From: Corynebacterium auriscanis
Lineage (GTDB): Bacteria; Actinomycetota; Actinomycetes; Mycobacteriales; Mycobacteriaceae
Direction of reading: 5' to 3'
NCBI RefSeq assembly: GCF_030408435.1
Contig: NZ_CP047046.1
Location: forward strand, 62,001 to 126,000
DNA: 64,000 nt
Every line of letters begins with the position of its first letter. The first letter of the stretch is position 1. The notes beneath the pieces were generated by a model. It searched no databases. It saw nothing but the letters and a program-made list of their open reading frames with translations, and had not been told where the DNA came from. Positions 26,378 to 58,764 of this stretch are shown piece by piece. The position numbers were made by a program, and so were the translations under genes.

Positions 26378-27919
26378 ATGTCTACACGCATTGTTCATCG
26401 CCCCGCGCGGACACATCAAAGAATAGCCGCGGAAAAACCGATCCAACTCGCGGCCGTGCCTACCGTGCGATCGAATGGTCAGGGCGCGAACATAATCTCC
26501 TTTATTCTGCCCGTGGTGGGTGGCATGGGAATGGTGTTGATGATGATGTCTTCGGGCAATCCCATTCGCATGGCGGTCGGAGCTGTTATGTTTGTGGTCG
26601 TAATTCTCGGCGCCACCGTCATGTTTATCCGCTCCAAAACAGGCAAGCGGAAAGAAGCGGAAATCGCCCGCGAGAGGTTCCTTGACCATCTTCAGGAAAC
26701 CGAAAGCGAAGTACGTGCCCGCGCGCAGGCGCAGTTGCATCTTTCGCAAGTACGTAATCCTGCCCCGGCGGCCCTTACGGATGCCATTCGTAACCCTTTT
26801 CGTTTGTGGGAACGGCGCCGGACTGACGAAGATGTTTTGGTTATCCGCATCGGCACTGGGGTAGCCGACCTCGCTTGTGGCATAGCGCCTAAAGAGACTG
26901 CTGATCCCATGGCTATTACCGAGCCGATCGCGCAGGCGCACATGGATCGTATGCTCAAGCGCGCTCGAACGATCGAGAACTCCCCGCTGGCCATCCCTGC
27001 GCGCGGCAGTGTTTCCATCGTCGGGCCAGCGGAGCTCACCGCTGAAGCGATTCGGGCTATCATTACTCAGGCAGCTGTGTTCCATTCACCAGATGATTTG
27101 TCCATCCATGTGACGATGCCGCTTTCCGACCCAACTGATAATGGCCGGTGGGCATTGTGGCTCCCACATCTGCTCAGCAAAGATCGGTTCGATGGACCTA
27201 TTGGACGACGCCAAGTCTCCCACGATGAAAACTCCGCCGGAGCCTTAATCACTGAACTACGACGGCGCGCAGAACTATTGCAGGAACGCGCGCGTTACAA
27301 AATGACGGCGCTCGATGAGCCGTTCCTCATGGTCGTGGCGAACATGGATACCCCACACGGGCACGCTATCGCGCAGGAAATCGGCACCATCCCCAGTTTG
27401 GATAAAGCTCGTGTGACTCTTCTGGCGACGACGGCGCATCAGCAAAATGAGCCCTCCCATGTCGATGTGCGTGTCACTCTCAATGAAGACCGTAGTTTTC
27501 AGTCCGAGCTATTGGATCGCGGCGAGATTCGTCAGCCCGAACAGGGGGAGAAGGGCTACGTGGAACGTGCCCTGTACGGGGGATTCTCCGGTCATTTAGA
27601 CCGAGTGGATTGTGCACAGGCCACAGCCATCACGCGGGCACTTGCGCCATTGCGCTTGGTGGAAGATAAAACACCGGATGCTCCGCTGGAACAAACTATT
27701 GGCTTGGACGCGATGCTAGGAATCGAGGATTTCGCCACCTACGATATTGGCCGACAGTGGGAGCCCAAGTCCGCGGCCGATTTCCTCAAGGTCCCGTTCG
27801 GAATTGATGCTGAAGCTCAACCGATCTGCCTAGACATTAAAGAATCTGCGAAAAACGGAATGGGCCCTCACGGCTTGTGTGTGGGCGCAACGGGTTCCGG
27901 TAAATCAGAACAAGGATAG
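26378..27919 (+). pseudogene. eccC: eccC, 5' part, interrupted at Walker A of ATPase domain 1
   Basis: First 508 codons of the T7SS FtsK/SpoIIIE-type motor ATPase EccC, with a few element-derived codons before a stop. ATG 26378 follows GAGGATC. Two membrane helices (residues about 44-62 and 66-88) are followed by the EccC N-terminal region. The frame reaches LCVGATGSGKSE, the Walker A of ATPase 1, then ends EQG-stop inside the inserted element. The rest lies 28.3 kb away at 56,217-58,764. As it stands the product lacks all three ATPase catalytic parts, so the T7SS should be off while the element is integrated. Confidence 0.95.
27885..27919 (+). other. attL junction in eccC
   Basis: Left chromosome-element junction. 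The chromosomal half reads ACGGGTTCCGGTAA (T-G-S-G-K) and continues into element sequence ATCAGAACAAGG. The core shared with attR is GGTAA at 27,899-27,903. The serine recombinase gene starts 34 bases further on. Confidence 0.88.
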
Positions 27920-27936
27920 TGGGTACGATATAGGCC

Positions 27937-29400
27937 ATGACCCTTCGTGCTGCCATTTACGCCCGTATTTCGCTCGACCTTAAAGAAGAAGCCGGTGTGA
28001 AGCGACAAGTTTACTTGGCTACCAAGCAGGCTGAGGCCGACGAGGCGAGCCTAGTCGCCACCTACGTCGACAACAACATTTCAGCTTTCTCCGGTGAGTT
28101 CCGGCCGGAGTATGACAAGCTCATCAAGTCTATTGAGGCCGACGAGCTGGACGTTGTCTACGTGTACGCATTGGATCGGCTCACCCGCCGAACCAAGGAC
28201 ACGTTGGCGCTGTTTGAGCTGTGCGAGCGATACAACGTTCGCGTGCGCGCGAACCGCGGATATGACATCGATCCCTCCGACCCTGCTTCGCGGCTTACCA
28301 TCGTCATCCTGGGGCTGATCGCCGAGCAGGAGAGCATTGACCGTGCTGCCCGTATTCGTGCAGCCTACGAGGACCGAGCACGTACCGGCCGTCCCAAGAC
28401 TGGTGGACGTCGGATGCTTGGTTACGGGGTGGACGGTATGACAGTCATCGACGACGAGGCCCAGGCTATCCGCGATGCTGCGCAGTTGGTTCTGGCTGGC
28501 AAGACACTGCGCGAAATTGTCCGTGAGATCTTCCATGCCCGCGACATCCAGTCCACTTCCGGCCGAGAGATGTCCCCACAGACGCTGCGAGATATCTTGC
28601 TTAACCCTCGCGTACGGGGCATAAGCACCTTCAATCCCACCGACCCTGCGACTGGTTACCGCCTTATTAAGAACAGGCAGATCCTTGGGCCTGGTACGTG
28701 GCCGGCAATTATCGACGAGGCAACTGGCGAAAATCTTGATGTCGTGCTTCGTGATCCGGCGCGCCGAAGTAATCACTCCGGCAATGCACCGACGCGTTAC
28801 CTTGCTTCCGTGCTGACTTGTACCTGCGGTGATCCGATGTATTCACGCAGTCGCGGGCGTAGAGATGGTTCCATGCAGCGCTTCTACACGTGCAAACGCT
28901 CAAACCCAGGCGGTAAGCACGTCTCTATCGGCGCCGAAATTGACGAGTTCATCGAGCGTGTCATCTTAGCCCGCATGGCCGAGCCTGATGCCCTGAGGGT
29001 CATACAGCAGGCTCTTGCCCCGGCTGAGGACGATGCTGCCACTGACGAGCTTCAGCACTTACTTGCTGATCGGAATGCTCTCTTAGCGCGCCGCGAGAGC
29101 ATCGAGGAGTCTGTGATCGCCGGTAATATTGACGTTGATACCTTTGGTCGGCTCGAGAATAAGATCGCTAAACAGGTGGCTACCATTGAGTCTCGGCTCG
29201 CGGAGCTGACAGCGGTGCATGATGCTGATCCGCTCGCTGCTGAACTGGCAGATGCTTCTGACTTTCCCGAGTGGTGGGAGGGAGCCTCGGTTCAGGATAA
29301 GCGGCGGCTCACCCGTCTACTCATGGAAATACATATCCTTCCCGGCAGGGCGGGTGCCAAGCAATTCGACCCGAACCGTGTCCAGGTAACCTGGAAATAA
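27937..29400 (+). CDS. Large serine recombinase (integrase)
   Basis: A 487-aa site-specific recombinase that would integrate and excise the element through attP x attB. The catalytic serine is in YARISLD (S12), followed by RQ (24-25 region) and the family motifs YALDRLTRRTKDT and GLIAEQESIDRAARI in the resolvase domain. Next come a recombinase domain (GRRMLGYG to LNPRVRG) and a zinc ribbon (CTCGDPMY with YTCKRSNPGG). A long C-terminal coiled coil with a basic tail completes it. It starts 34 bases inside attL, the usual place for such integrases. No separate directionality factor is obvious; the HTH protein at the other end is a candidate. Confidence 0.95.
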   Translation: MTLRAAIYARISLDLKEEAGVKRQVYLATKQAEADEASLVATYVDNNISAFSGEFRPEYDKLIKSIEADELDVVYVYALDRLTRRTKDTLALFELCERYNVRVRANRGYDIDPSDPASRLTIVILGLIAEQESIDRAARIRAAYEDRARTGRPKTGGRRMLGYGVDGMTVIDDEAQAIRDAAQLVLAGKTLREIVREIFHARDIQSTSGREMSPQTLRDILLNPRVRGISTFNPTDPATGYRLIKNRQILGPGTWPAIIDEATGENLDVVLRDPARRSNHSGNAPTRYLASVLTCTCGDPMYSRSRGRRDGSMQRFYTCKRSNPGGKHVSIGAEIDEFIERVILARMAEPDALRVIQQALAPAEDDAATDELQHLLADRNALLARRESIEESVIAGNIDVDTFGRLENKIAKQVATIESRLAELTAVHDADPLAAELADASDFPEWWEGASVQDKRRLTRLLMEIHILPGRAGAKQFDPNRVQVTWK

Positions 29401-29479: not shown

Positions 29480-30151
29480 TTAATTTGGGACCGCGGTGCT
29501 TTTAGGTTTGTACGTCGTTCCCCACGCTACGTTGATCTTACTTCGGAGCATTTCCTGAAGTTCTCCGGCGACCATTTCGTAATCGTAGAGATTGTCTTTC
29601 ATACGTCCTTCGAATGGTCCCCGGAGTGCCTTTATGTCCGGGATTGCCGTATCGAAAATATTGACGTTCTTTTTCTGGAGTTGGAGGAGGAACTCAGCCT
29701 CAAGGGTAACGGCGCGCCCTATGCGATTGAGTAGTACTGCACAGGGCCCTGCCACTGATTCTACGGTGGCCAGCGTTGGGTGGAAGTCCGCGCTGCTTGG
29801 GAATGCCGGTATAATCACGAAATCTGAGACAGGAGAGAGAATTCGAATGGCTGCGGGGCTGTGCGACGGTGTGTCAATAATCGTCAAATCGTATTGGCTA
29901 GAAGGGTTCAGAATTCGATCGGTTAGCGGGTATGTCTCAGGATGCTTCTGGTAGATCGGAACGTGGTCAACGGGGAACGGTAGAGGACTACCCTCCTTGG
30001 TCGCGTATTTAGCGGTTGATGCGGCATGGCCTTGATAGACGGCATCTACCACCCGGACACTCGCTCCATGCTCACTGGCCACCTGCGCCAGCATCAGTGC
30101 TGTAGTAGTTCTGCCGGAACCACCTTTGAGATTGGCTACGGTTAGAATCAT
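29480..30151 (-). CDS. ParA/Soj-like ATPase with altered Walker A
   Basis: A 223-aa deviant-Walker ATPase like those that segregate plasmids and integrative elements. The N-terminus reads LKGGSGRTTTALM: the signature Lys (KGG) is present, but the canonical P-loop Lys of G-x-GKT is Arg. The Walker A' Asp is in VVDAVYQGHA, where ParA proteins usually have D-x-D-P-Q, and the Walker B-like DLTIIDTPSHS is present. Length is normal for small ParA proteins. No ParB gene is adjacent. ATPase activity may be reduced by the K-to-R change; the role in maintenance is inferred. Confidence 0.85.
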   Translation of the reverse strand: MILTVANLKGGSGRTTTALMLAQVASEHGASVRVVDAVYQGHAASTAKYATKEGSPLPFPVDHVPIYQKHPETYPLTDRILNPSSQYDLTIIDTPSHSPAAIRILSPVSDFVIIPAFPSSADFHPTLATVESVAGPCAVLLNRIGRAVTLEAEFLLQLQKKNVNIFDTAIPDIKALRGPFEGRMKDNLYDYEMVAGELQEMLRSKINVAWGTTYKPKSTAVPN

Positions 30152-30343: not shown

Positions 30344-30805
30344 ATGGGCATCTTCTCCGGTCGGCATTTCCCCCGTGACATCATCCTGTGGGCGGTGCGG
30401 TGGTACTGCCGCTACGGGGTGAGCTACCGCGATCTCGAAGAAATGATGACCGAGCGGGGTGTGCCAGTCGATCACACCACGATCTACCGCTGGGTGCAGA
30501 AATGCGCCCCTGAGCTGGATAAGCAGACTCGCTGGTACCGGCAGGTACCCGACTGGCAGGCCCGGTCCTGGCGGGTGGATGAGACCTATATTCGGGTCGG
30601 CGGCACGTGGTGCTATCTCTACCGGGCTATTACCGCCGGTGGGCAGACCCTGGACTTTTACCTCTCCCCAAAGCGGAACGTGGCCGCAGCGAAGCGTTTC
30701 CTGGCCAAGACCCTACGGTCGAATAAATCGGCAAGCTATCCGCGGGTGATCAGCACCGCGGCAACCGCGATGGCGGCTCTGCGGGGTGTGCTCGGCATGG
30801 ATTAG
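30344..30805 (+). pseudogene. IS6-family transposase, 3'-truncated
   Basis: The left inverted end (GGTGCTGTTGCAAAGTTGGG) is at 30,290. The transposase starts at ATG 30344 with GIFSGRHFPRDIILWAVRWY. The helix-turn-helix and the first catalytic Asp (WRVDETYIRVGG) are intact up to KSASYPRVIS. From about 30,755 it diverges from the full copy at 47,505-48,344 and stops at 30,805. The second Asp and the Glu are lost, so it is inactive. Confidence 0.88.
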
Positions 30806-33291: not shown

Positions 33292-33401
33292 TGCGGTGCA
33301 GGCAGTGAAATCCCTGGTGGCGCCTGCTGAACTGACCAGGGGAGGCGATGCCGCCGGCCCGGGGTGGGGCACAGGGGTGACGGCGGTCGAAGGGTGATGT
33401 T

Positions 33402-33421
33402 TGAAGATTTGATGAAGGTTT
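33402..33421 (+). promoter_or_regulatory. CopR-binding direct repeat upstream of copR
   Basis: TGAAGATTT-GA-TGAAGGTTT, one mismatch from the published C. glutamicum CopR motif TGAAGATTT-NN-TGAAGATTT (from memory). It lies 60 bases upstream of the copR ATG, between the divergent cueP and copRS genes, and supports autoregulation by CopR. Confidence 0.8.
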
Positions 33422-33480
33422 CCCCGCAGGGCACTGAGCGAGGGTGGTATTCTCCCCTGGCCGGAGCGATACTGGGGTCT

Positions 33481-34203
33481 ATGGCTGACCGCACACCGAC
33501 CACCGCCACGCCCCCGGGGCGGGTGCTGGTCGTCGATGATGAACAACCCCTGGCTCAGATGGTGGCCTCCTACCTCATCCGGGCCGGCTTTGACACCCGC
33601 CAGGCGCACACCGGCACCCAGGCCGTGGACGAGGCCCGTCGCTTTTCCCCCGATGTTGTGGTGCTGGATCTGGGGCTGCCCGAACTCGACGGCCTGGAGG
33701 TGTGCCGACGGATCCGCACCTTCTCGGACTGCTACATCCTCATGCTCACCGCGCGTGGCAGCGAGGACGACAAGATCAGCGGTTTGACCCTGGGGGCGGA
33801 TGACTACATCACCAAACCTTTTAGCATCCGGGAACTGGTGACCCGGGTGCATGCGGTGCTGCGCCGCCCGCGCACCAGCACCACCCCACCGCAGGTGACC
33901 ACCCCCTTGATCGTTGGTGACCTCATCCTTGACCCCGTCGCCCATCAGGTGCGGGTGGGGGAGACGACCGTGGAGCTCACCCGCACGGAGTTCGAGCTGC
34001 TGGTTGCCCTGGCCCTGCGCCCCGGCCAGGTGCTGACCCGACACGACCTGGTCACCGAGGTCTGGGACACCACCTGGGTCGGTGATGAACGCATCGTCGA
34101 TGTCCACATCGGCAACTTGCGTCGCAAGCTCGGCACCGACACCCGGGGCCGGGGGTTTATCGACACCGTGCGTGGCGTGGGCTACCGGGTGGGGCAGCCA
34201 TGA
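33481..34203 (+). CDS. copR: OmpR-family copper response regulator
   Basis: A 240-aa two-component regulator. The receiver domain has the acidic pair in VVDDEQP, the phospho-acceptor Asp in VVLDLGLPELDG, T in MLTARG and K in TKPFS. The C-terminal winged helix ends RGVGYRV. ATG 33481 is chosen over upstream in-frame codons because the receiver starts directly after it. The stop overlaps the next start (ATGA), so it is coupled to the kinase. A CopR box lies just upstream, and neighbours are copper genes, so copper is the likely signal, as for C. glutamicum CopR. Confidence 0.93.
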   Translation: MADRTPTTATPPGRVLVVDDEQPLAQMVASYLIRAGFDTRQAHTGTQAVDEARRFSPDVVVLDLGLPELDGLEVCRRIRTFSDCYILMLTARGSEDDKISGLTLGADDYITKPFSIRELVTRVHAVLRRPRTSTTPPQVTTPLIVGDLILDPVAHQVRVGETTVELTRTEFELLVALALRPGQVLTRHDLVTEVWDTTWVGDERIVDVHIGNLRRKLGTDTRGRGFIDTVRGVGYRVGQP

Positions 34204-35348
34204 ATCACGGACCCGGCCTGACCTTCCGCTTCCTGGCCGCCCAGGTGTTGGTCGTGGTGATTAGCCTGCTGGTTGCCGCGGCCGTGGCCACGGTGGTGGG
34301 CCCGACCCTGTTCCATGATCATATGTTGATGACCGGCCGGGAGGACCCCTCGCTGGAGCTGTTCCATGCCGAGCAGGCCTACCGGGACGCCAACCTGATC
34401 ACCCTGGCCGTCGCCCTGCCCACCGCCTTGATCAGCGCCCTGCTGGCCAGCCTGTGGTTATCGCGTCGCCTGCGCACCCCCCTGCAGGATCTCACCCGCG
34501 CCGCTACCAGCCTGACGGCCGGCAACTACCGTATCCGCGTGCCCGCCGGAGAAGCAGGCCCCGAGGTCACCACCCTGGCGCATGCCTTCAACACCATGGC
34601 CGACCGGCTGGAACACACCGAACAGGTCCGCCGCCAGATGCTCTCTGATCTGGCCCACGAAATGGGCACCCCCTTATCGGTGCTCACGGTCTACCTCGAT
34701 GGTCTCCAGGACGGGGTCGTGGACTGGAATAATGCCACCCACACGATCATGGCTGACCAACTCACCCGCCTGACCCGGTTGATGGAAGACATCGACGATG
34801 TCTCCCGGGCCCAGGAACACCGGATCGATTTGGACCTGGCGGAGGAAGGGCTCGGGGATCTGCTCCATACCGCCGCTGCTGCCGCGGGGGAAGCTTATGC
34901 TGACAAAGGCGTCGATTTACAGGTCGAGACCATTACGGACACAGCCCGGGTGCTCGTGGACCGGCAACGCTTCGGCCAGGTGATGAGCAATCTCCTGTCG
35001 AACGCGCTACGGCACACCCCGGCCGGCGGGCAGGTCCGGATCAGCGTCCACCGACAGGGGGCGTCCACCGCGCTCATCCACGTCGCCGATGACGGCGAGG
35101 GCATCCCACCTGGCCAGCTCGGACACATCTTCGAACGCTTCTACCGGGGGGATGCCGCCCGCAGCCGGGACAACGGCGGGGCCGGTATCGGTCTGACCAT
35201 CTCCAAGGCATTGATCGAGGCCCACGGCGGCACTCTCACCGCCACCTCTCCTGGCCCCGGTGCCGGATCGGTCTTCACCATCCGTCTTCCCCTGCACCAG
35301 GAAAACGTGTCCCTGATGCTCAGTGACCCCCACTCCCGGGGACAATAA
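34200..35348 (+). CDS. copS: Copper sensor histidine kinase
   Basis: A 382-aa membrane kinase: a TM helix near residues 11-31, an extracytoplasmic loop of about 35 residues with HDHMLM, a second TM (about 64-86), HAMP, and a dimerisation helix with the phospho-acceptor His in SDLAHEMGTPLSVL. ATPase boxes follow: N (NLLSNALRHTP), G1 (DDGEGIP), F (FERFYRG), G2 (GAGIGLTI). The short His/Met-containing sensor loop suits copper sensing. Overlaps copR by 4 bases. Partner of CopR. Confidence 0.93.
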   Translation: MNHGPGLTFRFLAAQVLVVVISLLVAAAVATVVGPTLFHDHMLMTGREDPSLELFHAEQAYRDANLITLAVALPTALISALLASLWLSRRLRTPLQDLTRAATSLTAGNYRIRVPAGEAGPEVTTLAHAFNTMADRLEHTEQVRRQMLSDLAHEMGTPLSVLTVYLDGLQDGVVDWNNATHTIMADQLTRLTRLMEDIDDVSRAQEHRIDLDLAEEGLGDLLHTAAAAAGEAYADKGVDLQVETITDTARVLVDRQRFGQVMSNLLSNALRHTPAGGQVRISVHRQGASTALIHVADDGEGIPPGQLGHIFERFYRGDAARSRDNGGAGIGLTISKALIEAHGGTLTATSPGPGAGSVFTIRLPLHQENVSLMLSDPHSRGQ

Positions 35349-35791: not shown

Positions 35792-35841
35792 TCGATTCGC
35801 CCATCATCTCGACCCCGACCGGGTTGAGCGAAAGGAACCTC

Positions 35842-38019
35842 ATGAGCACTCCCCACCACCACGGTGATCACCCCGCTCCGGAAACAGACCACACCCACCA
35901 CCCGAATCATGCCGGTCACGAGCACCATGCGGATGCCGCCACCCACGACCAGGCCATGCCGCACGATCATCCGCATTCCACTGTCGATGAAGAACACCAG
36001 GTCCACGATCACGGTGAACACGCCGGCCACAGCGCCGCGATGTTCCGGGACCGCTTCTGGTGGTCGCTGATCCTGTCGGTTCCGGTGGTGTTCTTCAGCC
36101 CGATGTTCGCCGACCTGCTGGGATATAATATTCCGGAGATTCCGGGAGCCTACTTGATTCCTCCGGTCCTGGGCACGATCATCTTCCTCTACGGCGGCAC
36201 CCCCTTCCTCAAGGGCGCAATGACCGAGCTGAAATCCCGCCAACCGGGCATGATGCTCCTGATCGCCATGGCGATCGCCGTGGCGTTTATCGCCTCCTGG
36301 GTCACCACCCTGGGGCTGGGCGGGTTCCACCTAGATTTCTGGTGGGAACTGGCCCTGCTGGTGACCATCATGCTGCTGGGCCACTGGCTGGAGATGCGCG
36401 CTCTTGGTGGAGCCTCCTCCGCGCTTGACGCGCTGGCAGAGCTCCTGCCCGATGAGGCCGAGAAGGTCGTCGACGGGACCACCCGCACCGTAGCGATCTC
36501 AGAGCTAGCCGTCGACGATGTCGTGCTGGTCCGAGCCGGTGCCCGCGTCCCGGCCGACGGGACCATCATCGACGGAGCGGCCGAATTCGATGAGGCCATG
36601 ATCACCGGTGAATCCCGCCCCGTCTTCCGGGATACCGGTGAGACCGTGGTGGCCGGCACCGTGGCCACCGACAACACCGTCCGGGTCCGGGTGGAGGCCA
36701 CCGGTGGGGACACTGCCCTGGCAGGCATCCAGCGCATGGTCGCCGATGCCCAGGCCTCCTCCTCCCGGGCCCAGGCCCTGGCCGATCGAGCCGCAGCCTT
36801 CCTGTTCTGGTTCGCCCTGATCGCGGCCCTGATCACCGCCGTGGTCTGGACCATCATCGGCAGCCCCGATGATGCCGTGGTCCGCGCGGTGACCGTGCTG
36901 ATCATCGCCTGTCCGCACGCCCTGGGCCTGGCCATCCCCCTGGTCATCGCGATCTCCACCGAGCGGGCCGCGAAATCCGGGGTGCTCATCAAGGACCGGT
37001 TGGCCTTGGAGCACATGCGCACCATCGACGTGGTCTTGTTTGATAAGACCGGCACCCTGACCGAAGGCGCACACGCCGTCACCGACATCATGGCTGCCGA
37101 CGGCATTACCGAGGGCGAGCTGCTGTCCCTGGCCGCCGCCGCCGAGGCCGATAGCGAGCATCCCGTGGCCCGGGCGATCGTGGCTGCCGCGGCCGCACAC
37201 CCGGAGGCCTCACGCCGCCCACTGCGCGCAACCGGTTTCACCGCCGCCTCCGGCCGCGGGATCCGGGCCACTGTCGATGGCACCCAAATCCTCGTGGGTG
37301 GGCCGAACATGTTGCGCGAATTCAGTCTGACCATCCCGGGTGAGCTCACCGACATCACCGGTTCCTGGACGCAGCGAGGCGCCGGAGTGCTCCACGTCGT
37401 CCGCGACGGTGAGATCATCGGTGCCGTGGCCGTCGAGGACAAGATCCGCCCCGAATCCCGCGCGGCGGTGCGCGCCCTGCAGGCCCGCGGGGTGAAGGTG
37501 GCGATGATCACCGGTGACGCCACCCAGGTCGCCCAGGCAGTGGGCAAGGATCTGGGGATCGATGAGGTCTTCGCCGAGGTTCTGCCGCAGGACAAGGACA
37601 CCAAGGTCACCCAGCTGCAGGAGCGCGGTCTGAGCGTGGCCATGGTCGGCGACGGTGTCAATGACGCCCCGGCCCTGGCCCGGGCCGAGGTCGGTATTGC
37701 GATTGGCGCGGGTACAGATGTGGCGATGGAGTCCGCCGGGGTGGTCCTGGCCAGTGATGATCCCCGGGCCGTGCTGTCGATGATCGAGCTCTCCCATGCC
37801 AGCTACCGCAAGATGGTCCAGAACCTGGTCTGGGCCTCTGGCTACAACATCCTCGCCGTTCCCCTGGCCGCCGGAGTGCTCGCCCCTATCGGGTTCGTGC
37901 TGTCCCCGGCCGTGGGCGCGATCTTGATGTCCCTGTCCACGATCATCGTCGCCCTCACCGCCCAGCTGCTACGCCGGATCGACCTGGACCCGGCTCACCT
38001 GGCTCCGACCAACGGCTGA
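35842..38019 (+). CDS. copB: Copper-translocating P1B-type ATPase, CopB-like (CPH)
   Basis: A 725-aa exporter ATPase. The N-terminus is His-rich (HHHGDHP, HTHHPNHAGHEHH) instead of an HMA domain, and the ion-binding transmembrane motif is CPH (IIACPHALGLAIP); both mark the CopB subgroup. Phosphorylation motif DKTGTLTEG, TGES in the actuator, GDGVNDAPAL in the hinge. Eight hydrophobic segments fit the class. ATG 35842 has AAAGGAACC upstream. It pumps copper out across the membrane. A strong hairpin terminator follows. Confidence 0.93.
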   Translation: MSTPHHHGDHPAPETDHTHHPNHAGHEHHADAATHDQAMPHDHPHSTVDEEHQVHDHGEHAGHSAAMFRDRFWWSLILSVPVVFFSPMFADLLGYNIPEIPGAYLIPPVLGTIIFLYGGTPFLKGAMTELKSRQPGMMLLIAMAIAVAFIASWVTTLGLGGFHLDFWWELALLVTIMLLGHWLEMRALGGASSALDALAELLPDEAEKVVDGTTRTVAISELAVDDVVLVRAGARVPADGTIIDGAAEFDEAMITGESRPVFRDTGETVVAGTVATDNTVRVRVEATGGDTALAGIQRMVADAQASSSRAQALADRAAAFLFWFALIAALITAVVWTIIGSPDDAVVRAVTVLIIACPHALGLAIPLVIAISTERAAKSGVLIKDRLALEHMRTIDVVLFDKTGTLTEGAHAVTDIMAADGITEGELLSLAAAAEADSEHPVARAIVAAAAAHPEASRRPLRATGFTAASGRGIRATVDGTQILVGGPNMLREFSLTIPGELTDITGSWTQRGAGVLHVVRDGEIIGAVAVEDKIRPESRAAVRALQARGVKVAMITGDATQVAQAVGKDLGIDEVFAEVLPQDKDTKVTQLQERGLSVAMVGDGVNDAPALARAEVGIAIGAGTDVAMESAGVVLASDDPRAVLSMIELSHASYRKMVQNLVWASGYNILAVPLAAGVLAPIGFVLSPAVGAILMSLSTIIVALTAQLLRRIDLDPAHLAPTNG

Positions 38020-39232: not shown

Positions 39233-41590
<2,358 letters not shown>

Positions 41591-48593: not shown

Positions 48594-49547
48594 CTAGTCG
48601 TCGCCCGCTAGCTTCGATGCGACGTAGACCATGGGGCTGACTATCAGGCCGATAGCACCTAACGTGACCGCGAGCCAGCCGACCGTCGAGTACCAGGTCT
48701 CGGCCGCCGCGACGTGTCCCCAGAGCGTGCCCACACCGTCGGGTAGACCCAAGAACTGCATTACCCCCACTCCTAACGCCCCGATAGCTGTGAGTCCCGC
48801 TCCTACCAGCAGGGTCGCGATGATTACCCACAGCGCAAACCTCTTGGTATTTTCCATCCTTTCCGTGTCTTTCTGTATAGCTTCGGCCAGTTTCTGTCGC
48901 TCTGTGGTCACCTTTTCCAGCTCCTTCGACAGACGCGCACGCTCTCGTTCCAGCCGGTTCACGGCTGCGTTGACAGTGCTGTCTAAGCTGTCTTGGACGC
49001 TTTTGAAGGACTCGTTGACCAGTGGCCTCAGGTCAGAACTCAGGCTCGTAGTTAGCTGCCTGGTTAAGCCTCTCGAGACGCTCTTGGCGCTTTCGTCGCT
49101 GAGCTTCACCGGATGCTTCGCGACCTCCAGCGTTGCGCGGTACATCGCCGCGAGGTCGCCGAGTGTTTTCTGGATACTTTTCATCGACGGGCCCATGTCC
49201 GTCAGCATGTTTACCAGACTGCTGATGGTCTCCGCGACCGCCCGCTGCGCCTGGTCGTACTCCTTCGTCCCGACGGTGGTTTGAGCTAAACTTTTCAGCT
49301 GCTCGCCGAGCTTCTGTTGCTGCCCGGATAACCTCAGAAGTTCCTTCTCCGACGCTGCGATGGATTGGATCTTGGTTTCCAACTCGCTCACTGCTTTGAG
49401 CGCTGCTGCTGTCTTGGTTGAGTCCTTCGTACGTTGACTCTGCAAGGTCTCCAGGGCTTCCAAGACGGGGTCCAGACTCTCGTCCAGATATGTCTCTAGG
49501 GTTTGTTGCTGATGCCCGGTCAGTGGTTGATTCACTGTCATTTTCAC
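48594..49547 (-). CDS. MobB-like coiled-coil membrane protein overlapping the relaxase gene
   Basis: 317 aa. Long coiled-coil segments (residues about 20-110 and 195-235) precede two C-terminal TM helices (FALWVIIATLLVGAGLTAIG and a second near WLAVTLGAIGLIV). It shares 515 bases with the 3' part of the relaxase gene in another frame, the same nested arrangement as mobB inside mobA in ColE1-type plasmids, whose MobB is also membrane-anchored. It probably tethers the relaxosome to the transfer apparatus. Family membership is by architecture, not sequence motif. Confidence 0.7.
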   Translation of the reverse strand: MKMTVNQPLTGHQQQTLETYLDESLDPVLEALETLQSQRTKDSTKTAAALKAVSELETKIQSIAASEKELLRLSGQQQKLGEQLKSLAQTTVGTKEYDQAQRAVAETISSLVNMLTDMGPSMKSIQKTLGDLAAMYRATLEVAKHPVKLSDESAKSVSRGLTRQLTTSLSSDLRPLVNESFKSVQDSLDSTVNAAVNRLERERARLSKELEKVTTERQKLAEAIQKDTERMENTKRFALWVIIATLLVGAGLTAIGALGVGVMQFLGLPDGVGTLWGHVAAAETWYSTVGWLAVTLGAIGLIVSPMVYVASKLAGDD

Positions 49548-50532
49548 TTTCTTTGTTGAGGTGTTTAATTCGGTCTATGCGTGTCTGTCGAGCAATGGCT
49601 GCTGCCAGCTGTGCTTGTGCTTCTGCAATACGGTCGCTCAGACCACTGGTGGTGTAGCCAGGGCCGAATTTCGAGCCCGCGTCTGCTGCTTTGCGCTTAC
49701 GGCTCTTACCCTTCGGGGTGCGTGTTGTGTACGTCATGTCCTTGCCGTTGTCATCGACCAGTCCGATGCTGAGTTCGTCGTCCATCATCTTCAGCGACAG
49801 GTTGTAATCGACAGCCAGGTCGTGCGCTTTATCAAGCCCATCCGGGGCGTTGAGGACGCGGTCATCTGCGATTAGTTCATCGACGCGCTTGCGAAGATAA
49901 TCAGCCCAGGTATCGCCCGTCAGGTCGTTGATTCCTAGGCCAGTCGAGTCAATGCTTTTACCGTCTCGGATCGCCATGCGTTCGGCACGCCGGAGCTTGA
50001 CGAAGCCTTCTGGCTCCAATCTCCTCATACCCCAGTCGCGCATCACCTCATCGTTGACTACTTTGACTGCGTGCCAATTGCCGGCGCGTTTAGGCGTGGC
50101 CTTACCAGTACTTAGGTCGTGATTAAGCAGGATTAGGTGGTTGTGCACACAACCGGATTTGCTGTCGGTATGGGTGGCAACGACGAAAGGTGTGTCGGGC
50201 GCCAGCCGCTGCGCTAAATCTGTACCCATCGCGTTGGCTTTCTCGACATGTGACGGATCATCTCGGTTTAGCTCGTCGCGCGACCAGGACTGAACTAGAG
50301 TAATGGCCCTATTACTGCGGTTGCTGTAATTATTCATGATGTCACGGCCAGATTCGATGAACTCGATTCCGGCCCAGCGGCCGTCGCTGTCGTTGTCCAT
50401 TTCACTGCCGCAAACGACTGTCAATGCCGTAGCGCGAACTTGACCACTCTTTGCATTCGTACGGTTGCCATAGACCGCGTATACGACAGGCGAAGACAGA
50501 CTTTTTGATCTATCAACGGTTGTAATTGACAT
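49033..50532 (-). CDS. Mobilisation relaxase
   Basis: A 499-aa DNA relaxase that would nick oriT and pilot the strand in conjugative mobilisation. The metal-binding motif III is GCVHNHLILLN (H-x-H with a following Asn), preceded by FVVATHTDSKSG, with a candidate catalytic Tyr near the N-terminus (VVYAVYGNRT). The C-terminal third is hydrophilic, coiled-coil and Gly/Arg-rich. It overlaps mobC at its start (20 bases) and the mobB-like gene at its end. No type IV secretion genes are in the window, so the element would need a helper. Confidence 0.85.
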   Translation of the reverse strand: MSITTVDRSKSLSSPVVYAVYGNRTNAKSGQVRATALTVVCGSEMDNDSDGRWAGIEFIESGRDIMNNYSNRSNRAITLVQSWSRDELNRDDPSHVEKANAMGTDLAQRLAPDTPFVVATHTDSKSGCVHNHLILLNHDLSTGKATPKRAGNWHAVKVVNDEVMRDWGMRRLEPEGFVKLRRAERMAIRDGKSIDSTGLGINDLTGDTWADYLRKRVDELIADDRVLNAPDGLDKAHDLAVDYNLSLKMMDDELSIGLVDDNGKDMTYTTRTPKGKSRKRKAADAGSKFGPGYTTSGLSDRIAEAQAQLAAAIARQTRIDRIKHLNKESENDSESTTDRASATNPRDISGRESGPRLGSPGDLAESTYEGLNQDSSSAQSSERVGNQDPIHRSVGEGTSEVIRAATEARRAAEKFSSNHRRDEGVRPGAAGGRGDHQQSGKHADGHGPVDEKYPENTRRPRGDVPRNAGGREASGEAQRRKRQERLERLNQAANYEPEF

Positions 50533-50884
50533 AGCTACTGACCGTATCCTTGAGGTGATTAAAGTCTGCCTGAGCCTGGGATATGAGGGCTATCAACCCG
50601 TCGTCGCCAGAGGCGTGCGCCCGCCGTGTGAGCTGGTTGAGATTCACGCCGATACGATTGATCTCTTTCCACAATCGCCTCACGTTGTTCTGAAACTCTT
50701 GCGGTGGGTCATTGATCCGACGCTCCCACCCTCGCGGCAGTCGGTCAGCTAGGGTGTGGATAGCTCCCCGCATGACCTCTGCTGGGGACAGGTTGGCGCG
50801 CTTAGCGACTTCGCTAACGATATGCCACTGTTCGGCATTAAGTCGCAAAGTCAATCGCTTCTCGACAGGTCCGTCTAGTTTCAA
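50513..50884 (-). CDS. MobC-like relaxosome accessory protein
   Basis: A 123-aa protein with an N-terminal ribbon-helix-helix-like part (KRLTLRLNAEQWHIVSEVAKRANLSPAEVMRGAI) and the MobC motif NNVRRLWKEINRIGVNLNQLTR. MobC binds oriT and helps open it for the relaxase. It immediately follows a candidate oriT hairpin and overlaps the relaxase start. Confidence 0.86.
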   Translation of the reverse strand: MKLDGPVEKRLTLRLNAEQWHIVSEVAKRANLSPAEVMRGAIHTLADRLPRGWERRINDPPQEFQNNVRRLWKEINRIGVNLNQLTRRAHASGDDGLIALISQAQADFNHLKDTVSSYVNYNR

Positions 50885-51446: not shown

Positions 51447-51448
51447 TT

Positions 51449-52322: not shown

Positions 52323-55091
52323 TCAGTACGGCAGCCGGTCGGCGTCCGAGGGGTGGTCACCGGAGGCCATTGCCACCATCCGGTCGAGGTAGGGGGAGAG
52401 CGCGTCGGTGGGGAGCATCTGAGCGGCGCGCTCGGGGCGTCGAGCGTTGTCCCAGTCGCCGCGAGAAACGGTGCCCATCCCCCACTCAGCAAGCCACACA
52501 AGGCGCTCGGTAATGCTCAGAGAGCGGTCGGCCAATGTCGGGATCGTGATCACGCCCTGCCGGTGTGCCATGACGATGGACATCAGCACCGTGCGTTGCG
52601 GAGTAATGATCCGGCGACCCTTGCCGTGGGTGTATCGCACGTCCCAGTCACGCCATTCGGCGACGGTGCGAAGGCATCCTGTCCGTGCCATCTCGCGAGC
52701 GATCTGCCGGGCGCGCACGCAGTCCTCGATTCGTTCCCACGGTTCGGTGGGGAATGTCGCCATCTCCTTGGATGAGCCATCCGGAAGAGGCACCATCTCT
52801 GGGGTCATGGAGGACATGACGGGCTTGCGCTTGAGGTCATAGTCCATGCTCACGGAGCGCTCGACACGGGAGGGAAGAAAGTCCTTGCGGTCTTCGGTAC
52901 GAGACAGCTCCTGGAACGACGGGAACCTGGTGTACCCGTTCGGAACGCGACCCTCACGGGTCACGACCGAAACCAGGAGCAACTCGCGGTCTTCAAGGCT
53001 GTCAGGGAGGACGCCCTTTGGTGCCTTGAGCCCGTTGTGAGCACACACCCCACGGAGGTCGAGGGAGACGTTGCCGCGCGTGGTGAAGTTCACCAGGTCG
53101 CGCTGCGCATGCTTGGCCTCCCAGATCGACGGGTCGCCGGTCAGAGCAATGCGCGCATCGCCGAGCACCTCCTTCAGCCCGTAGAGGTCCAGGGCGGCGA
53201 CCTCATCCACGGTGGCGTCGGTGATGAAGCCATCCGTCGTCACCGAGTAGACCTTCCGTCCGTGATCGGTGAGTTGATTCATCGTCGCCAGCAGCTGAGC
53301 ACGCACCAACGAGGTCGTGGTGGCAGCGTGATATGGGCTGGACACGGCCGAGCCGCTGTCGTTGTCTATTTCCTGTGCCCGAGCGTCCCAGGACCGATGC
53401 TCAGCGACATCCTGAGCAGTTTTGCCGTACACCGAGTTCACGCAGGTCTTGAGCGTCTGCTCCTCCAGCGACCCCTTGCCGTACAGCGCCTTAGCGGCGT
53501 TGCGGTCGTCGATCAGCTGCTTCACCCCATGACGCAACGACAGGCTCGGCTCACCATCGAGCTTGAGGACGCGTCCGAGGTAACCGATCTGGCAGTAGAC
53601 TTTCGCGCCCACCACGAGAGCGAGCCACAGCTCAGGACCGCACACCCAGGTCCCAGCGACGCCCTCTGAGGTCCGCGGGTAGATGAGCGTCCCGTCAGCG
53701 ACGATGGGCAGGCAAGGATGCAGCACATTGCCCGGGAACTCGAAGGAGACGAATCCTACGAACGGTGTCGTCGCCGAGGGCACCTCGTCCAGGGTGAGAG
53801 TCCTTTCGTGAACAACATCCTCGATGGCACCGGCCTCCCAGTCGAGGTCGCGCACCAACGCCATCGCGGTGGGATAGGCATTCTGAGCGTCGATGTCCAC
53901 GGTCGGGATCGGGTAGTAACCAGGCATCGGGCAGCTGTTGAGACCGCCGTGATACGCGCGAGCGAATGCCTTAGTCAGCTGTGCAGCGGCACCGTCCAGA
54001 GGATTGCGGCCACGCTTGGCGTAGAAGCTCAGCCGGTCGCCTTCCTCGACGGCTTCGACGCCTTCGTCCTCATCCACCAGCCCGGCGAACTTCCGCCGAA
54101 ACTCTGCCGGTGATGACGCCCCGAGGTAGGTACTGCCCGAATCTACAAGGGCGGCAGCCGCGCCACCGCTGAGAGTGATCGGAGGAACGACGCCATCGCC
54201 CCAGAGGCGGGCGAGGTACTCGACAACGATCACGGCGTCGTTGACGCCGTACTCCAGGAATGCCTGCAAATGCTCACACCGGTAGTCGGACATGCGCGAG
54301 ATCCACCCATCCGGCACGTCCAGCTTCGCGACACCGCACGCCTCGCCGAGCACCACCAGCGACTTCTTCCCAGCAGGGGCCTGTGACATCGTGTCACGCA
54401 CGGTCACCGACAAGCTCTGCCACCAGTGCCCGTTCTCGTTGCCCCGCTGCGAGCGGAACGGCAACAGCGTGACCAGCCCGCCACCAGCCGACGTCAGTCG
54501 GACGAGGCTGTCCAGCTCACGCGACTGGCCACCAGTGCGGAACGTCGTGAGGTCGGCGGAACCGTAATGACAGGCGAGCACGATGGGCACGCGCAGCTTC
54601 GCCAGCGCCTCGCGGCGCTTCTCCCAATCCTCGGACCAGAACGAGCCGCGAGAAACACCACGGGGACCTACCTCGTCAGGCACCAGAGGTGAGCGCCACA
54701 ACTCAGCGGCAGTAACCACGGTCCACAGCGCCCGGTGCAGCGAGATGCGAGAGGTCGATCCCAGCGGAGGCAGGATGATGACCTCGACCATCACCGACGG
54801 ATCGACCGGGTCCGGCACCGCGAACTGATAGCTGTCGATGACCCGAGCGCCACCACTGGTCGTGAACTCTGTGTCGAACCCGACGATGATGCCGGCGCGG
54901 CCCGTGCCCATCGCCCTCACCGACGGAAGGTCACCGAACGACCTCGTGGCGGCGCGGTCAGACGGTTGTAACGCGGGGCTCCCGCTCACCGCGGTCCGAG
55001 GGCGTCGCCGCACGAGCACCTCGAAGACGACGCCGTGCCGGGCGCCGTCGGTGATCTCCTGGCGCGTCCAGCCATACGCCGTGGCGCTCAT
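52323..55091 (-). CDS. Family B DNA polymerase with 3'-5' exonuclease, candidate piPolB
   Basis: 922 aa. Exonuclease domain: Exo I FDTEF (D73, E75), Exo II around D180 (HYGSADLTTF), Exo III YGVND (Y281, D285). Polymerase: motif A VDIDAQNAYP (D399-Y406), motif B KTCVNSVYG (548-556), motif C VTTDGF (D620). The TTDG in place of the usual DTDS recalls primer-independent PolBs of pipolins, as far as I remember that family. No terminal-protein gene or linear-replicon feature is visible. It probably replicates the excised circle or takes part in repair. Overlaps the HTH gene by 4 bases (ATGA). Confidence 0.82.
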   Translation of the reverse strand: MSATAYGWTRQEITDGARHGVVFEVLVRRRPRTAVSGSPALQPSDRAATRSFGDLPSVRAMGTGRAGIIVGFDTEFTTSGGARVIDSYQFAVPDPVDPSVMVEVIILPPLGSTSRISLHRALWTVVTAAELWRSPLVPDEVGPRGVSRGSFWSEDWEKRREALAKLRVPIVLACHYGSADLTTFRTGGQSRELDSLVRLTSAGGGLVTLLPFRSQRGNENGHWWQSLSVTVRDTMSQAPAGKKSLVVLGEACGVAKLDVPDGWISRMSDYRCEHLQAFLEYGVNDAVIVVEYLARLWGDGVVPPITLSGGAAAALVDSGSTYLGASSPAEFRRKFAGLVDEDEGVEAVEEGDRLSFYAKRGRNPLDGAAAQLTKAFARAYHGGLNSCPMPGYYPIPTVDIDAQNAYPTAMALVRDLDWEAGAIEDVVHERTLTLDEVPSATTPFVGFVSFEFPGNVLHPCLPIVADGTLIYPRTSEGVAGTWVCGPELWLALVVGAKVYCQIGYLGRVLKLDGEPSLSLRHGVKQLIDDRNAAKALYGKGSLEEQTLKTCVNSVYGKTAQDVAEHRSWDARAQEIDNDSGSAVSSPYHAATTTSLVRAQLLATMNQLTDHGRKVYSVTTDGFITDATVDEVAALDLYGLKEVLGDARIALTGDPSIWEAKHAQRDLVNFTTRGNVSLDLRGVCAHNGLKAPKGVLPDSLEDRELLLVSVVTREGRVPNGYTRFPSFQELSRTEDRKDFLPSRVERSVSMDYDLKRKPVMSSMTPEMVPLPDGSSKEMATFPTEPWERIEDCVRARQIAREMARTGCLRTVAEWRDWDVRYTHGKGRRIITPQRTVLMSIVMAHRQGVITIPTLADRSLSITERLVWLAEWGMGTVSRGDWDNARRPERAAQMLPTDALSPYLDRMVAMASGDHPSDADRLPY

Positions 55092-55396
55092 GCCGCACCG
55101 CCTAACAGCGCAAACAGACGCTGCACCTGCTCATCGGTCAGCGGGGGAGCGGTGGCGACGATGTGCTTGACCGCGTCCTCGATGTCCTCGAAGGGGGCTG
55201 GCCGCTCCGGTACCGCGCGAACCTCAAGGTCGCTTGACCGCACCATCAGCCGGTTGCCGATCTTGACCGCGGGCAGGAGGCCCGCTTTGATGTCGCGTCT
55301 GAGGGTTGAATAGCCGCCGTATCCGAGAGCGGCGGCGCGCTTGAGTGAGATGAGTGGTTCAGGGGACGTGGTTATCGGAGTCGTAGCAAGACTCAT
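55088..55396 (-). CDS. Helix-turn-helix (excisionase/AlpA-like) protein
   Basis: 102 aa from ATG 55396 (after GAGGAAAC), a better start than upstream codons. It has a MerR/AlpA-type HTH: LISLKRAAALGYGGYSTLRRDIKAG, then LPAVKIGNRLMVRSSDLE, the wing typical of excisionases. A C-terminal helix (LTDEQVQRLFALLGG) follows. Its gene ends in the polymerase start. It could be the recombination directionality factor for the serine integrase or regulate the polymerase operon. Confidence 0.72.
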   Translation of the reverse strand: MSLATTPITTSPEPLISLKRAAALGYGGYSTLRRDIKAGLLPAVKIGNRLMVRSSDLEVRAVPERPAPFEDIEDAVKHIVATAPPLTDEQVQRLFALLGGAA

Positions 55397-55686
55397 CGTG
55401 GTAGTTTCCTCGCAGGAGTAATCCTCCGGCGTGGAGTGCATTGCCGGCTGCTACGGGGATTCACGGATAACTACATCCCACACCACATCAGTGCTCGTTT
55501 ATCGCTGATCAAGCGTCTCGGGCTACTTGACTCCGTGGAGCTGCTAGACCGCCGGATAACCGGTCGAGGGGATCTGCCGCGCTCCTAAGACCATGATCGG
55601 AGCTTGGCTCGGCTACGATCATAGCAGGATCAAACACGATTTGGTGTCTCTGGTGCGCTACGTGACGCCAGTGCTGTCCTGAATGT

Positions 55687-56035: not shown

Positions 56036-56048
56036 GGAAGGGTGCAAG

Positions 56049-56174
56049 GGGGGATACGGGAGGCTGTTTCCGGCCCCTTTCATAAAATATTTACAAAACG
56101 TGTTAATTGGTACATTCCCATTAATACGTTTTCTTTTTTCTAGGCTTAGGGTTAAAACAGCCCCCGTATCCCCC
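56049..56174. repeat. Nested inverted repeats next to attR
   Basis: Outer pair: GGGGGATACGGGAGGCTGTTT (56,049-56,069, one position differs) faces AAACAGCCCCCGTATCCCCC (56,155-56,174). Inner pair: AAAACGTGTTAAT (56,095-56,107) faces ATTAATACGTTTT (56,120-56,132), 12 of 13 matching. The inner loop is AT-rich, unlike its surroundings. Could be an origin, an attP arm or a transcript end. Confidence 0.75.
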
Positions 56175-56199
56175 TGGTGCGTACCCTCTTCGTAGCAAC

Positions 56200-56225
56200 A
56201 ACCCGTGTTCGGGTAAGTCTGAGGT
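56200..56225 (+). other. attR junction in eccC
   Basis: Element sequence AACCCGTGTTCG runs into GGTAA (56,212-56,216) and then chromosomal GTCTGAGGTGCTG. TTC-GGTAA-TC positions are shared with attL, and the 5-bp GGTAA is the identical core. Confidence 0.88.
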
Positions 56226-58764
56226 GCTGCGCACTATCGTGTTGGCCCAAGTCGTCAACCATTCGCCGGAACAATTATCCCTTGTGCTCGTGGACTTCAA
56301 GGGTGGCGCTACCTTCGCTGGCCTAGAACCACTGCCGCATACAGCAGCGCTAGTGGATAACTTGGGCGACGGCGCTGGATTGGTCGACCGTTTGCATGAT
56401 TCGATTGTGGGGGAAATTCAGCGTCGACAACACGTCCTACAGCAAGCCGGCAACCTAGCCAACGTTGGTGAATATAACAAGATTCGCGATGAAAAAATAG
56501 CGGCAGCGCAGCGAGGAGAGCGTCCTGAGTCGGAAATTCCGGAGCCTTTGCCAGTCCTTTTTGTCGTTATCGATGAGTTTGGTGAGTTGCTAGCTGCCAA
56601 ACCTGAGTTCATCGAACTGTTCGTGCAAATCGGTCGTATTGGCCGCTCGATTGGTGTGCACTTGCTGCTTGCCTCCCAGCGGTTGGAGGAAGGCCGGCTC
56701 CGTGGATTGGAAACCTATCTGTCTTACCGCATTGGATTGCGCACCTTCTCTGCGTCGGAATCCCGCACCGCCTTGGGCACCACAGCTGCACACGAGCTAC
56801 CTCCTATCCCCGGATCGGGATACCTCAAAGTTGATCCCGATATTTTCGAGAGATTCAAAGCCGCTTACGTTTCTGGGCCGTACGAATCCTCCGCATCTCA
56901 ACAAGAAAATGTGCTGCCGCCTGTGCCGATGCCACTCGACCTTCACAACTCCACTGAAAGTTGGCTGGCTCAGCGCGAAGAGGCCTTCCGTGTGCAACTC
57001 GATAACAATCGTGATCGCGGAGAGGTTCCTGTGGACGACAGAACCACATTGGAGTTGGTGGTGTCTCGACTCGCCCCCGCCGCAGAAACCACGCGCCAGA
57101 TCTGGTTGCCGCCACTACCGGAACAAACTGGACTAGAGGCAGCTGTAGGCAGAGTCGAACCAACCTCCACCCGTGGTCTCATGGGCGAAAAACCTGGCAT
57201 GTTGAAACTTCCGATCGGACTGAAAGACAAGCCGTTAGAGCAGTGGCAAGGGCCTATGGTTATCGATCTCGCTGGCTCCCAGGGAAACGTTGCAGTGCTC
57301 GGAGCTCCGCAGTCGGGAAAAACCACCACTCTCAAGACACTGATACTGTCGCTGGCGCTGACCCACACACCCGCAGAGGCTGCCGTGTACATCGTCGATC
57401 TCAACGGCAGTGCTTTTACAGATTTTCAGATCTTGCCCCACGTAGGTGACGTTGCCACCCGGTTCGAAGAAAATAAACTTCGCCGAACATTCTCCGAAAT
57501 GGTGCAGTTTCTCAATGAGCGGGAGCAGATTTTTGCAGCCCACCGCATTTCCTCCGTGGAGCAGATGCGAGATATGCATTCTAAGGGTCAGTTACCGGAA
57601 CTCCGAAACGCGGATGTTTTCCTTGTCATTGACGGTTGGAACCGCTTGAAAAAGGATTACGACGAACTCGCCGAAGTGGTTCTCTCACTAGCAGAACGCG
57701 GCCTTGGTTACGGCATCCACGTTATCTTCGCCACCGGCCGATGGGCAGATTTCAAGCTGCAACTGCAGTCGGTCATCGGCACACGCATCGAGCATCGTCT
57801 GAACGATCCTTTAGACTCGAGCGTGGGCAAGAAGCCTCAAGAGGCGCTGGCGAAACAGGCCGTCGGTCGTGCCATGGCGAATGATGCTCTGTTCGCCCAA
57901 ATCTGTATGCCTTACCTCAAACAACCTGATGTGGTACGCACGCAGGATACACATTCGCTGATTACCGCTATCGCTGATGCCCACCAGGGTACGGAAGCCG
58001 CACCAATTCGTATGCTTCCGGCCAAGGTGGAATATGACGAGCTGGTTGCCACCTCGGCAGGTGCGGAGCCAGCATTGATCGGTCTGGGAGAAACAACACT
58101 TCAGCCGGTGCGGTTTGATTTCGATCGGGGCCAGCGCCATCTATTGATCGTCGGTGATTCCGAATCGGGTAAGACTTCCACGATGCGCACACTTCTGGCA
58201 GAAGCGATCCGTGGTAAAAAACCCGGCCAAGTCATGTTCGGTGTTTTCGACCCACGTCGCACATTGTTGGGAGAATGCCCCGAAGAATTCCTCGGAGAAT
58301 ATGCGGGTACTCGTCCAAGTGCGGAAATCTTAGCAAAGGGAATTGCTAAGGAATTGGAACGTCGCTTGCCTCCGGCCTCTATCACGCCAGAACAATTAAG
58401 GAGTAAATCCTGGTGGCAGGGGCCAGAAATCTATTTGCTCATCGACGATGTTGAGCAATTTGAAGGGAACCAGAACCCCCTGCGGCCCATCGTCCCTTAT
58501 CTATCGCATGCAGCGGATATCGGTTTGCATGTTTGGGTAGCTCGACGCTCGGCGGGTGTCTCCCGCTCAGCCTATGATCCACTCATTCAAGGCATTCGCG
58601 AAAACGGAGCAAGCGGCTTGTTGCTCTCGGGTGAAAAGCAAGAGGGCGCTATCTGGCCAAAAATCTACTTGGAACCATTGCCAGCAGGCCGTGGTCGTTG
58701 GGTGCGAAGCTCCGGCCGCACTGAATTGGTCCAGGTAGCCTACACACCACCGACTTCTTTCTGA
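56217..58764 (+). pseudogene. eccC: eccC, 3' part, separated by the element
   Basis: The remaining 849 codons of EccC, resuming inside codon 509 (Walker A Lys) with SEVLRTIVLAQ. ATPase 1 continues with Walker B-type LVLVDFKGGATFAGLEPLPH and LFVVIDEFGELLA. ATPase 2 has Walker A GAPQSGKTTTLKTL and DVFLVIDGWNRL. ATPase 3 has GDSESGKTSTMRTLL and IYLLIDDVEQ. The frame is open to the TGA. Without excision there is no proper start; a GTG at 56,224 is possible but lacks a ribosome site. Joined to 26,378-27,903 it makes a 1,357-aa protein, normal for EccC. Confidence 0.95.

Follow-up and report, generated by a model that had tools for sequence, protein, structure and literature searches.

eccC is split by a 28.3-kb insert at its Walker A lysine codon

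We analyzed a 64,000-nucleotide stretch of the Corynebacterium auriscanis chromosome (contig NZ_CP047046.1, positions 62,001 to 126,000; hereafter the window), in which the type VII secretion system (T7SS) motor gene eccC is split at codon 509, i.e., the codon of the Walker A lysine, with a 28,313-bp insert lying between the two halves. Genomes are denoted below by their G-numbers in a set of 242 Corynebacterium genomes, where the window genome is G000 and the window corresponds to G000:C1:62001-126000. The 5′ part of eccC (26378 to 27903, plus strand) runs from the N-terminus to bases 1 and 2 of codon 509, and the 3′ part (56217 to 58764, plus strand) runs from the last base of that codon to the stop, with 848 codons from Ser510 onward. 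On the left side, the open reading frame (ORF) 26378 to 27919 closes with GATGSGKSEQG followed by a stop, so that the interrupted frame ends at 27919, and on the right side the gene resumes from 56218 with SEVLRTIV. Joining the 1,526 nt of the 5′ part to the 2,548 nt of the 3′ part gives 4,074 nt, or 3 × 1,358, in a single frame.

The boundary of the insert is corroborated by profile models and by an uninterrupted homolog. The NCBIfam model T7SS_EccC_a continues across the two halves (model positions 5 to 465 in the 5′ part, 466 to 673 in the 3′ part), and the 3′ part covers positions 2 to 564 of the 564 of T7SS_EccC_b. The EccC of G081 (1,351 aa from its ATG, within an open frame of 1,357) aligns to the window in the same order and without a gap, with residues 1 to 511 matching 26378 to 27910, residues 507 to 1351 matching 56209 to 58755, and zero residues lost at the join; relative to the 3′ part, the homolog differs in length by a net 4 residues, located away from the join. 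The G081 DNA at the position of the join reads GGTTCGGGTAAGTCTGAGG. Among the matches listed, the window excluded, 20 of the window eccC type span the whole 1 to 509 query at 52 to 65% identity, with two more at 43%, and all the listed window-type matches are open frames of at least 1,111 aa, versus 515 aa in G000. The ORF ends, the models, and the G081 alignment thus confirm what a sequence-only reading of the window had proposed, namely, that eccC is split at the Walker A lysine codon and rejoins into one 4,074-nt frame at these coordinates; the frame at the join, on which that proposal depended, is restored, and the boundary stands. The same reading had stated that integration removes the P-loop, which is not the case in the window: The 5′ fragment still carries GSGKSE, including the lysine, since the third base of its AAA codon is contributed by the element. 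Missing from this fragment are the remainder of ATPase domain 1 and domains 2 and 3.

Close integrase relatives occupy the same codon across the genus

The insert carries a gene for a large serine integrase of 487 aa (27937 to 29400, plus strand), with PF00239 (3e-25) and PF07508 (2e-10) over their cutoffs and a zinc ribbon, PF13408, at 19.4 bits, under its cutoff of 25.3. The two domains over cutoff support the serine recombinase that had been assigned to the 28.3-kb insert.

Matches to this integrase (E ≤ 1e-20) were found in 30 of the 242 genomes, and in 14, window included, the identity was 60% or more. Each of these 14 close integrases adjoins a 5′ half of eccC that breaks off at codon 509. 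The 13 relatives of the window integrase are 60 to 98% identical to it, and every one lies beside a split eccC; named relatives of the integrase include C. alimapuense VA37-3 (98%) and Corynebacterium sp. 122RC1 (67%). A survey of the eccC Walker A site in other Corynebacterium genomes, which the sequence-only reading had suggested, therefore bears out the site at 14 of 14 close integrases, a recurrence at one codon that exceeds chance. At a stricter E ≤ 1e-60, the integrase was detected in 9 of 401 genomes of the family, all within Corynebacterium, one genus of 31.

Below 60% identity, we inspected 16 integrase loci (L026 to L041) with about 1.5 kb of flank, leaving out five weaker matches. 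Here, eccC was seen only at L030 (G147) and L034 (G068), and an additional case, G104, was found in a wider stretch. Overall, eccC is cut at the Walker A codon in at least 16 of the 242 genomes and further upstream in two more; decayed inserts such as that of G034 (see below) may escape the count elsewhere, which makes 16 of 242 a minimum. The eccC 5′ half has a match in 234 of the 242 genomes. Three or more eccC types are represented among the targeted genes, namely, the window type, that of a second EccC of G000 (74% in G119), and the common type of the genus. Separately, the eccC genes of G212 and G073 are broken by apparent frameshifts and not by insertions (L103 4155-6427; L104 4495-6775).

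An AA core and attachment sites within the conserved motif

Both junctions could be read in 13 of the 14 close-integrase loci, the right side of G125 being decayed. In the window, the crossover dinucleotide AA lies at 27902 to 27903 in attL and at 56215 to 56216 in attR (both plus strand). This AA, which forms bases 1 and 2 of the Lys AAR codon, is common to attL and attR in each of the 13 related insertions and is the sole sequence common to all 13 pairs. Individual pairs share a few more bases, namely, three in G000 and one each in G004 and G025. The GGTAA core that had been read from the window is indeed common to both of its junctions, but across the 13 insertions only its AA holds. Upon insertion, the lysine codon has become AAT (Asn) in the 5′ fragment of 12 of the 14 family members; only G000 and G025 keep the lysine.

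The reconstructed attP is near-palindromic, with a representative form GTACCCACAACCCATGTTCGTTT-AA-TCCAGAATGTGGCTTTGGGGTAC that has the AA at its center. In 14 genomes (13 of the family plus G147), the attP arms match a palindrome at 14 to 21 of 25 positions, compared to 6.6 ± 2.2 positions (average ± SD, standard deviation; maximum 16) in 7,000 shuffled controls. A short asymmetric core dinucleotide (AA in 13 of 13) and a palindromic attP, both expected of large serine integrases, are present. The attB sites are hardly symmetric (3 to 11 of 24 positions). Across 13 sites, the left arm of attB reads GG..TgTG.aT.GG.GC.AC.GG....GG. (capitals invariant), and every base that is invariant in all 13 reconstructed sites falls at codon position 1 or 2, the positions that the protein motif is able to hold fixed. 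Together with the at least three diverged eccC types that are targeted, this supports the earlier suggestion that a conserved target codon would provide a broad host range.

Probable repeated insertion and other inserts in eccC

Comparisons between genomes suggest that insertion at codon 509 occurred repeatedly. For G031 and G156, DNA identity is 99.1% between the eccC 3′ halves and only 88.7% between the integrases, which points to separate insertions in sister species. For G000 and G003, the integrases are 98% identical and the eccC genes 64% (over the 200 codons after the site); integrases that barely differ thus reside in distantly related hosts and in eccC genes of different types, which points to recent spread.

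More distant inserts were found in eccC as well. The integrase of G147, about 37% identical to that of the window, uses the same AA of the same eccC codon, yet in its 9.6-kb element (L097 7668-17255) the integrase gene is at the attR end and oriented oppositely. In G034, the Walker A codon is the site of a decayed 5-kb insert (L102 5783-10838) with a still recognizable attR arm, in which we found no integrase; this insert has transposase-like ORFs, as read from the sequence, and a cation-efflux gene 29% identical to that of the window. Finally, in G068 and G104 a third integrase lineage lies next to eccC frames that start in codons of the N-terminal membrane segment (L099 3200-3340 and 12560-12680 in G104; L098 6000-6110 in G068), and the N-terminal codons missing from the G104 frame are found beyond the insert. 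This segment is apparently a second integration site in eccC.

Gene content of the element and its relatives

As delimited by the attL/attR comparison and the uninterrupted G081 homolog, the element (27904 to 56216) is probably an integrative mobilizable element (IME), with excision and transfer predicted. IMEs combine an integrase with relaxase or mobilization genes of their own, and the window element encodes both a MobA/VirD2-type relaxase (49033 to 50532, minus strand; PF03432, 1.4e-11, over cutoff) and a MobC-like mobilization accessory protein (50513 to 50884, minus strand; PF05713, 1.8e-6, over cutoff). A 922-aa polymerase-like protein (52323 to 55091, minus strand) is likely to act in replication; it has a weak PHROG DNA polymerase match (3e-7), no Pfam match, and 27 to 29% identity to two annotated plasmid DNA polymerases. 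A small helix-turn-helix (HTH) protein (55088 to 55441, minus strand; PHROG excisionase, 5e-4; PF12728 under cutoff) is a candidate excisionase, or recombination directionality factor, and ORFs related to it cluster in 8 of the 16 genomes compared. The element further contains a ParA-like ATPase (29480 to 30151, minus strand; PHROG 164, 9e-23; PF13614 and PF01656 over cutoff) and two transposase-like remnants, at 30344 to 30805 (plus strand; PHROG 157, 2e-17) and 47603 to 48271 (plus strand; PHROG 157, 3e-6; PHROG 25058, 1e-33). Among 30 element ORFs, no VirB4-, VirD4-, or TraB-like protein was recognized with PHROGs and with Pfam and NCBIfam subsets, none of these searches being aimed at conjugation genes. 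A consensus scan near attR returned no promoter for the eccC 3′ fragment.

The cargo is predicted to serve metal efflux. It consists of a response regulator (33364 to 34203, plus strand), for which OmpR/PhoB-type models, including cztR_silR_copR at 6e-48, are all under cutoff among the matches listed; a sensor histidine kinase (34200 to 35348, plus strand; HATPase_c, HAMP, HisKA); a copper/heavy-metal P-type ATPase (35824 to 38019, plus strand; TIGR01511, 575 bits, over cutoff); a second heavy-metal P-type ATPase with an HMA domain (39233 to 41590, minus strand; TIGR01525, 600 bits, over cutoff; PF00403); and a cation diffusion facilitator (44068 to 45009, plus strand; TIGR01297, 209 bits, over cutoff).

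Clustering of the element ORFs over 16 genomes revealed that modules are shuffled, with the integrase as the only module common to all clustered elements except the decayed G034 insert; contig ends interrupt the elements of G086, G136, and G156, for which the absence of a module means little. A relaxase was not recognized in every family member. A protein of about 1,400 aa clusters in nine genomes (split in G074, 1,088 aa in G086) and bears a family-A DNA polymerase domain in G031, a 920- to 1,076-aa protein occurs in four genomes, a small protein, in G031 a resolvase, clusters in ten, and a methylase/specificity cluster is present in six. Beside its integrase, the G031 element has a cassette (L079 4029-7842) of an N6-methylase, a type I-like specificity subunit, and a small resolvase. 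No restriction subunit was found among the nine G031 proteins scanned, and PADLOC, run on these nine, gave methylase, specificity, and polymerase-like matches, from which we assigned no defense system. Genes for the large and small subunits of ribonucleotide reductase occur as cargo in G031 (L079 11493-14816) and, by clustering, in G106 and G156.

A probable mobilizable element docked at a conserved codon

We consider it likely, at a probability of roughly 86%, that the window insert is an IME that uses its own serine integrase to split eccC at the Walker A lysine, that 13 close relatives of this integrase lie at the same codon in other genomes, and that these elements would disable the EccC copies they enter. 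In the proposed mechanism, the integrase would pair a palindromic attP with a degenerate attB that is fixed at the bases held constant by the motif HGLC-GATGSGKSE, and strand exchange would take place at the AA. Since the fixed attB bases are those that the protein motif holds, one enzyme could enter many species as well as diverged eccC copies. The outcome would be a 5′ fragment that usually carries a Lys-to-Asn change and a 3′ fragment without the Walker A of domain 1. With the aid of a helper, the element could be transferred through its relaxase and MobC, and the HTH protein may direct its excision. As a target, eccC would be tolerated because it is conserved yet presumably dispensable.

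Several observations weigh against this account. The next best integrase match after the close relatives, a fragment in G012 (164 residues, 57%), does not lie beside eccC, and the eccC of G012 is uninterrupted. The integrases of G125 and G136 are identical and may stem from one event, and a weak correlation between integrase identity and eccC identity (Mantel r 0.42, p 0.029) leaves room for some descent with the host. A window-type relaxase was found among the element ORFs of only 5 of the 16 genomes, with a partial match in G136, and its plasmid relatives are distant (22 to 35% identity). The excisionase and polymerase assignments depend on weak matches, and a 586-aa protein that clusters in six other genomes has no Pfam match in G031. 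Finally, a search of the 242 assemblies with an attP pattern, which fits 11 of the 13 family attPs and misses those of G124, G025, and the G147 type, returned no attP-like junction, circle, or tandem copy; assemblies rarely keep circles.

Alternative readings

Of the alternatives, a reversible switch survives best, although we hold it to be improbable. Here, conditional excision would rejoin eccC in frame and turn the T7SS on, as for comK, hlb, and skin. The join does restore the frame exactly, and on-demand excision has been discussed for serine-integrase integrative and conjugative elements (ICEs; PMC4701971; papers are cited by PubMed Central (PMC) number, and statements on them refer to the parts available to us). 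In addition, both eccC halves are open in 13 of the 15 loci measured (G125 not among them), i.e., in 11 of the 14 close-integrase genomes plus G034 and G147, with open 3′ parts of 761 to 870 codons. Recent insertions would equally leave the halves open, however, and open halves fit recent insertion and preserved function alike. Moreover, 3 of the 16 split genes have further lesions, being broken in G003 and G122 and decayed in G125, and the missing attP-like junction also counts against a switch.

The second T7SS cluster of G000 bears directly on this question. It is located at 2.155 to 2.165 Mb and contains an uninterrupted EccC, an eccD-like gene, an eccB over the family cutoff, and two WXG100 genes, with neighbors that read as mycP, truA, and rpoA; from this gene content, it appears to be ESX-4-like. 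Outside this cluster, no eccD or WXG100 genes were detected in G000. The G081 and G108 homologs of the window-type cluster have eccD-like genes (under cutoff) and WXG100 genes. The split copy sits in a reduced cluster, and because eccD and WXG100 genes are not detectable there, excision would hardly give a full system. The sequence-only reading, which had raised the idea of a switch, had itself counted a second intact eccC as half of what would speak against it, and such a gene is present, at 2.16 Mb and 1,069 aa long. With this second eccC, a split cluster that shows neither eccD nor WXG100 genes, and no attP-like junction, a T7SS switch in this strain is unsupported and unlikely; for eccC in general, the matter is undecided. 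In the other 13 close-integrase genomes, only the split eccC was detected (E ≤ 1e-20), and there the element would silence the only eccC copy detected. As a separate observation on the window cluster, an ISL3-like transposase (158 bits, under the 180-bit cutoff) lies upstream of eccC, at 21080 to 22141, where relatives have eccD.

Slightly less probable still is a selected knock-out, in which loss of ESX-4 itself would benefit the element or the host, e.g., by reduced metal import. The T7SS of C. glutamicum, an ESX-4 homolog under Fur regulation, is reported to import iron, and its ΔeccC mutant is sensitive to H2O2 (PMC12607788), while conjugal transfer in mycobacteria has been linked to ESX-4 expression in recipients (PMC9040860). 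Consistent with such a benefit, the window cargo is predicted to export metals, and several integrase lineages converge on eccC, i.e., the window family, G147 at the same codon, and G068 and G104 at the N-terminal segment. Sequence conservation alone could produce this convergence, however, and the cargo varies, with ribonucleotide reductase and methylase modules in other elements.

That the insert is a prophage integrated in eccC we regard as very improbable. Large serine integrases are common in phages (110 phage records match at E ≤ 1e-20), and a G119-type attL occurs in an IMG/VR contig that is filed as viral (L107). All 110 phage matches are below 60% identity, however, with the 20 matches listed at 28 to 32%, and a nucleotide search found no close phage relatives. 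A query of viral contigs with the single integrase returned nothing, and an alignment query of IMG/VR yielded seven integrase loci, L107 at 60% and the other six at 27 to 31%. We rejected the prophage since a PHROGs scan of 30 chosen element ORFs recovered no virion or packaging genes, i.e., no capsid, terminase, or portal, and only weak tail matches (2e-4 and 3e-3) in an ORF that overlaps the relaxase gene. The phage analogy drawn earlier does not hold as to the kind of element, which has a relaxase and MobC and, among the 30 ORFs scanned, no head, terminase, or portal genes. An assembly artefact or a chance coincidence has a negligible probability and is ruled out by recurrence, given the identical left junction in 13 other genomes and the single-contig, 2.6-Mb, 99.9% complete genome of G000.

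Relation to known systems and meaning

The nearest known kinds to the IME that we propose are the serine-integrase ICEs of streptococci (PMC4701971) and Listeria phage A118 in comK (PMC3556126). The streptococcal ICEs insert into rumA with a single integrase and into hsdM, mutT, and traG with integrase triplets, and they resemble the window element in their serine integrases, in their very short direct repeats (2 to 21 bp for rumA, 2 to 8 bp for the triplets), and in disrupting protein genes, which for the ICEs are mostly widespread and nonessential (PMC4701971). Unlike in these ICEs, we recognized no conjugation module, the codon targeted encodes the catalytic lysine of a secretion ATPase, and the host is Corynebacterium. 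A118 likewise combines a serine integrase, a 2-bp core, a palindromic attP, and a poorly symmetric attB within a coding gene that precise excision would rejoin (PMC3556126); it differs in being a phage and in its core (GG, versus AA here), and excision of the window element is predicted from sequence. In a similar manner, phiSa3int splits hlb, a host gene that excision can restore (PMC6597384), but phiSa3int is a phage, and its regulation has been studied. Judging from gene content, the T7SS locus of C. glutamicum is probably a homolog of the family's usual target, and, unlike for the window locus, the available parts of PMC12607788 describe no mobile element there.

The available portions of PMC8092301, PMC7478629, and PMC12632848 do not describe an eccC insertion, and we found no publication on such an insertion in the open-license part of PMC, while one may be in print elsewhere. 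As far as searched, what is new is the use of a secretion motor's catalytic-lysine codon as a target, by at least two integrase lineages, and its recurrence over the genus.

A further-reaching view, which we hold to be as doubtful as the selected knock-out, is that a genus-wide family evolved to dock at the DNA of the Walker A codon as an on/off lock on the T7SS, such that secretion or mating by the host would be timed by the element. If true, a resident element would disarm ESX-4, affecting iron import and perhaps also the receptivity of the host to foreign DNA, and exact excision would re-arm it.

For the IME reading that we favor, the integrases would be fixed on a codon that selection can hardly change, namely, that of the ATP-binding lysine of the T7SS motor, and one enzyme would have a target in nearly every species of the genus, as well as in gene copies that have diverged. 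The 13 reconstructed attP/attB pairs, with their degenerate, codon-constrained attB, could serve as genome tools for Corynebacterium, and the insertions themselves provide presumed natural T7SS knock-outs in 16 or more species. They make it possible to test whether disarming ESX-4 benefits the elements or whether they gain from its conservation alone.

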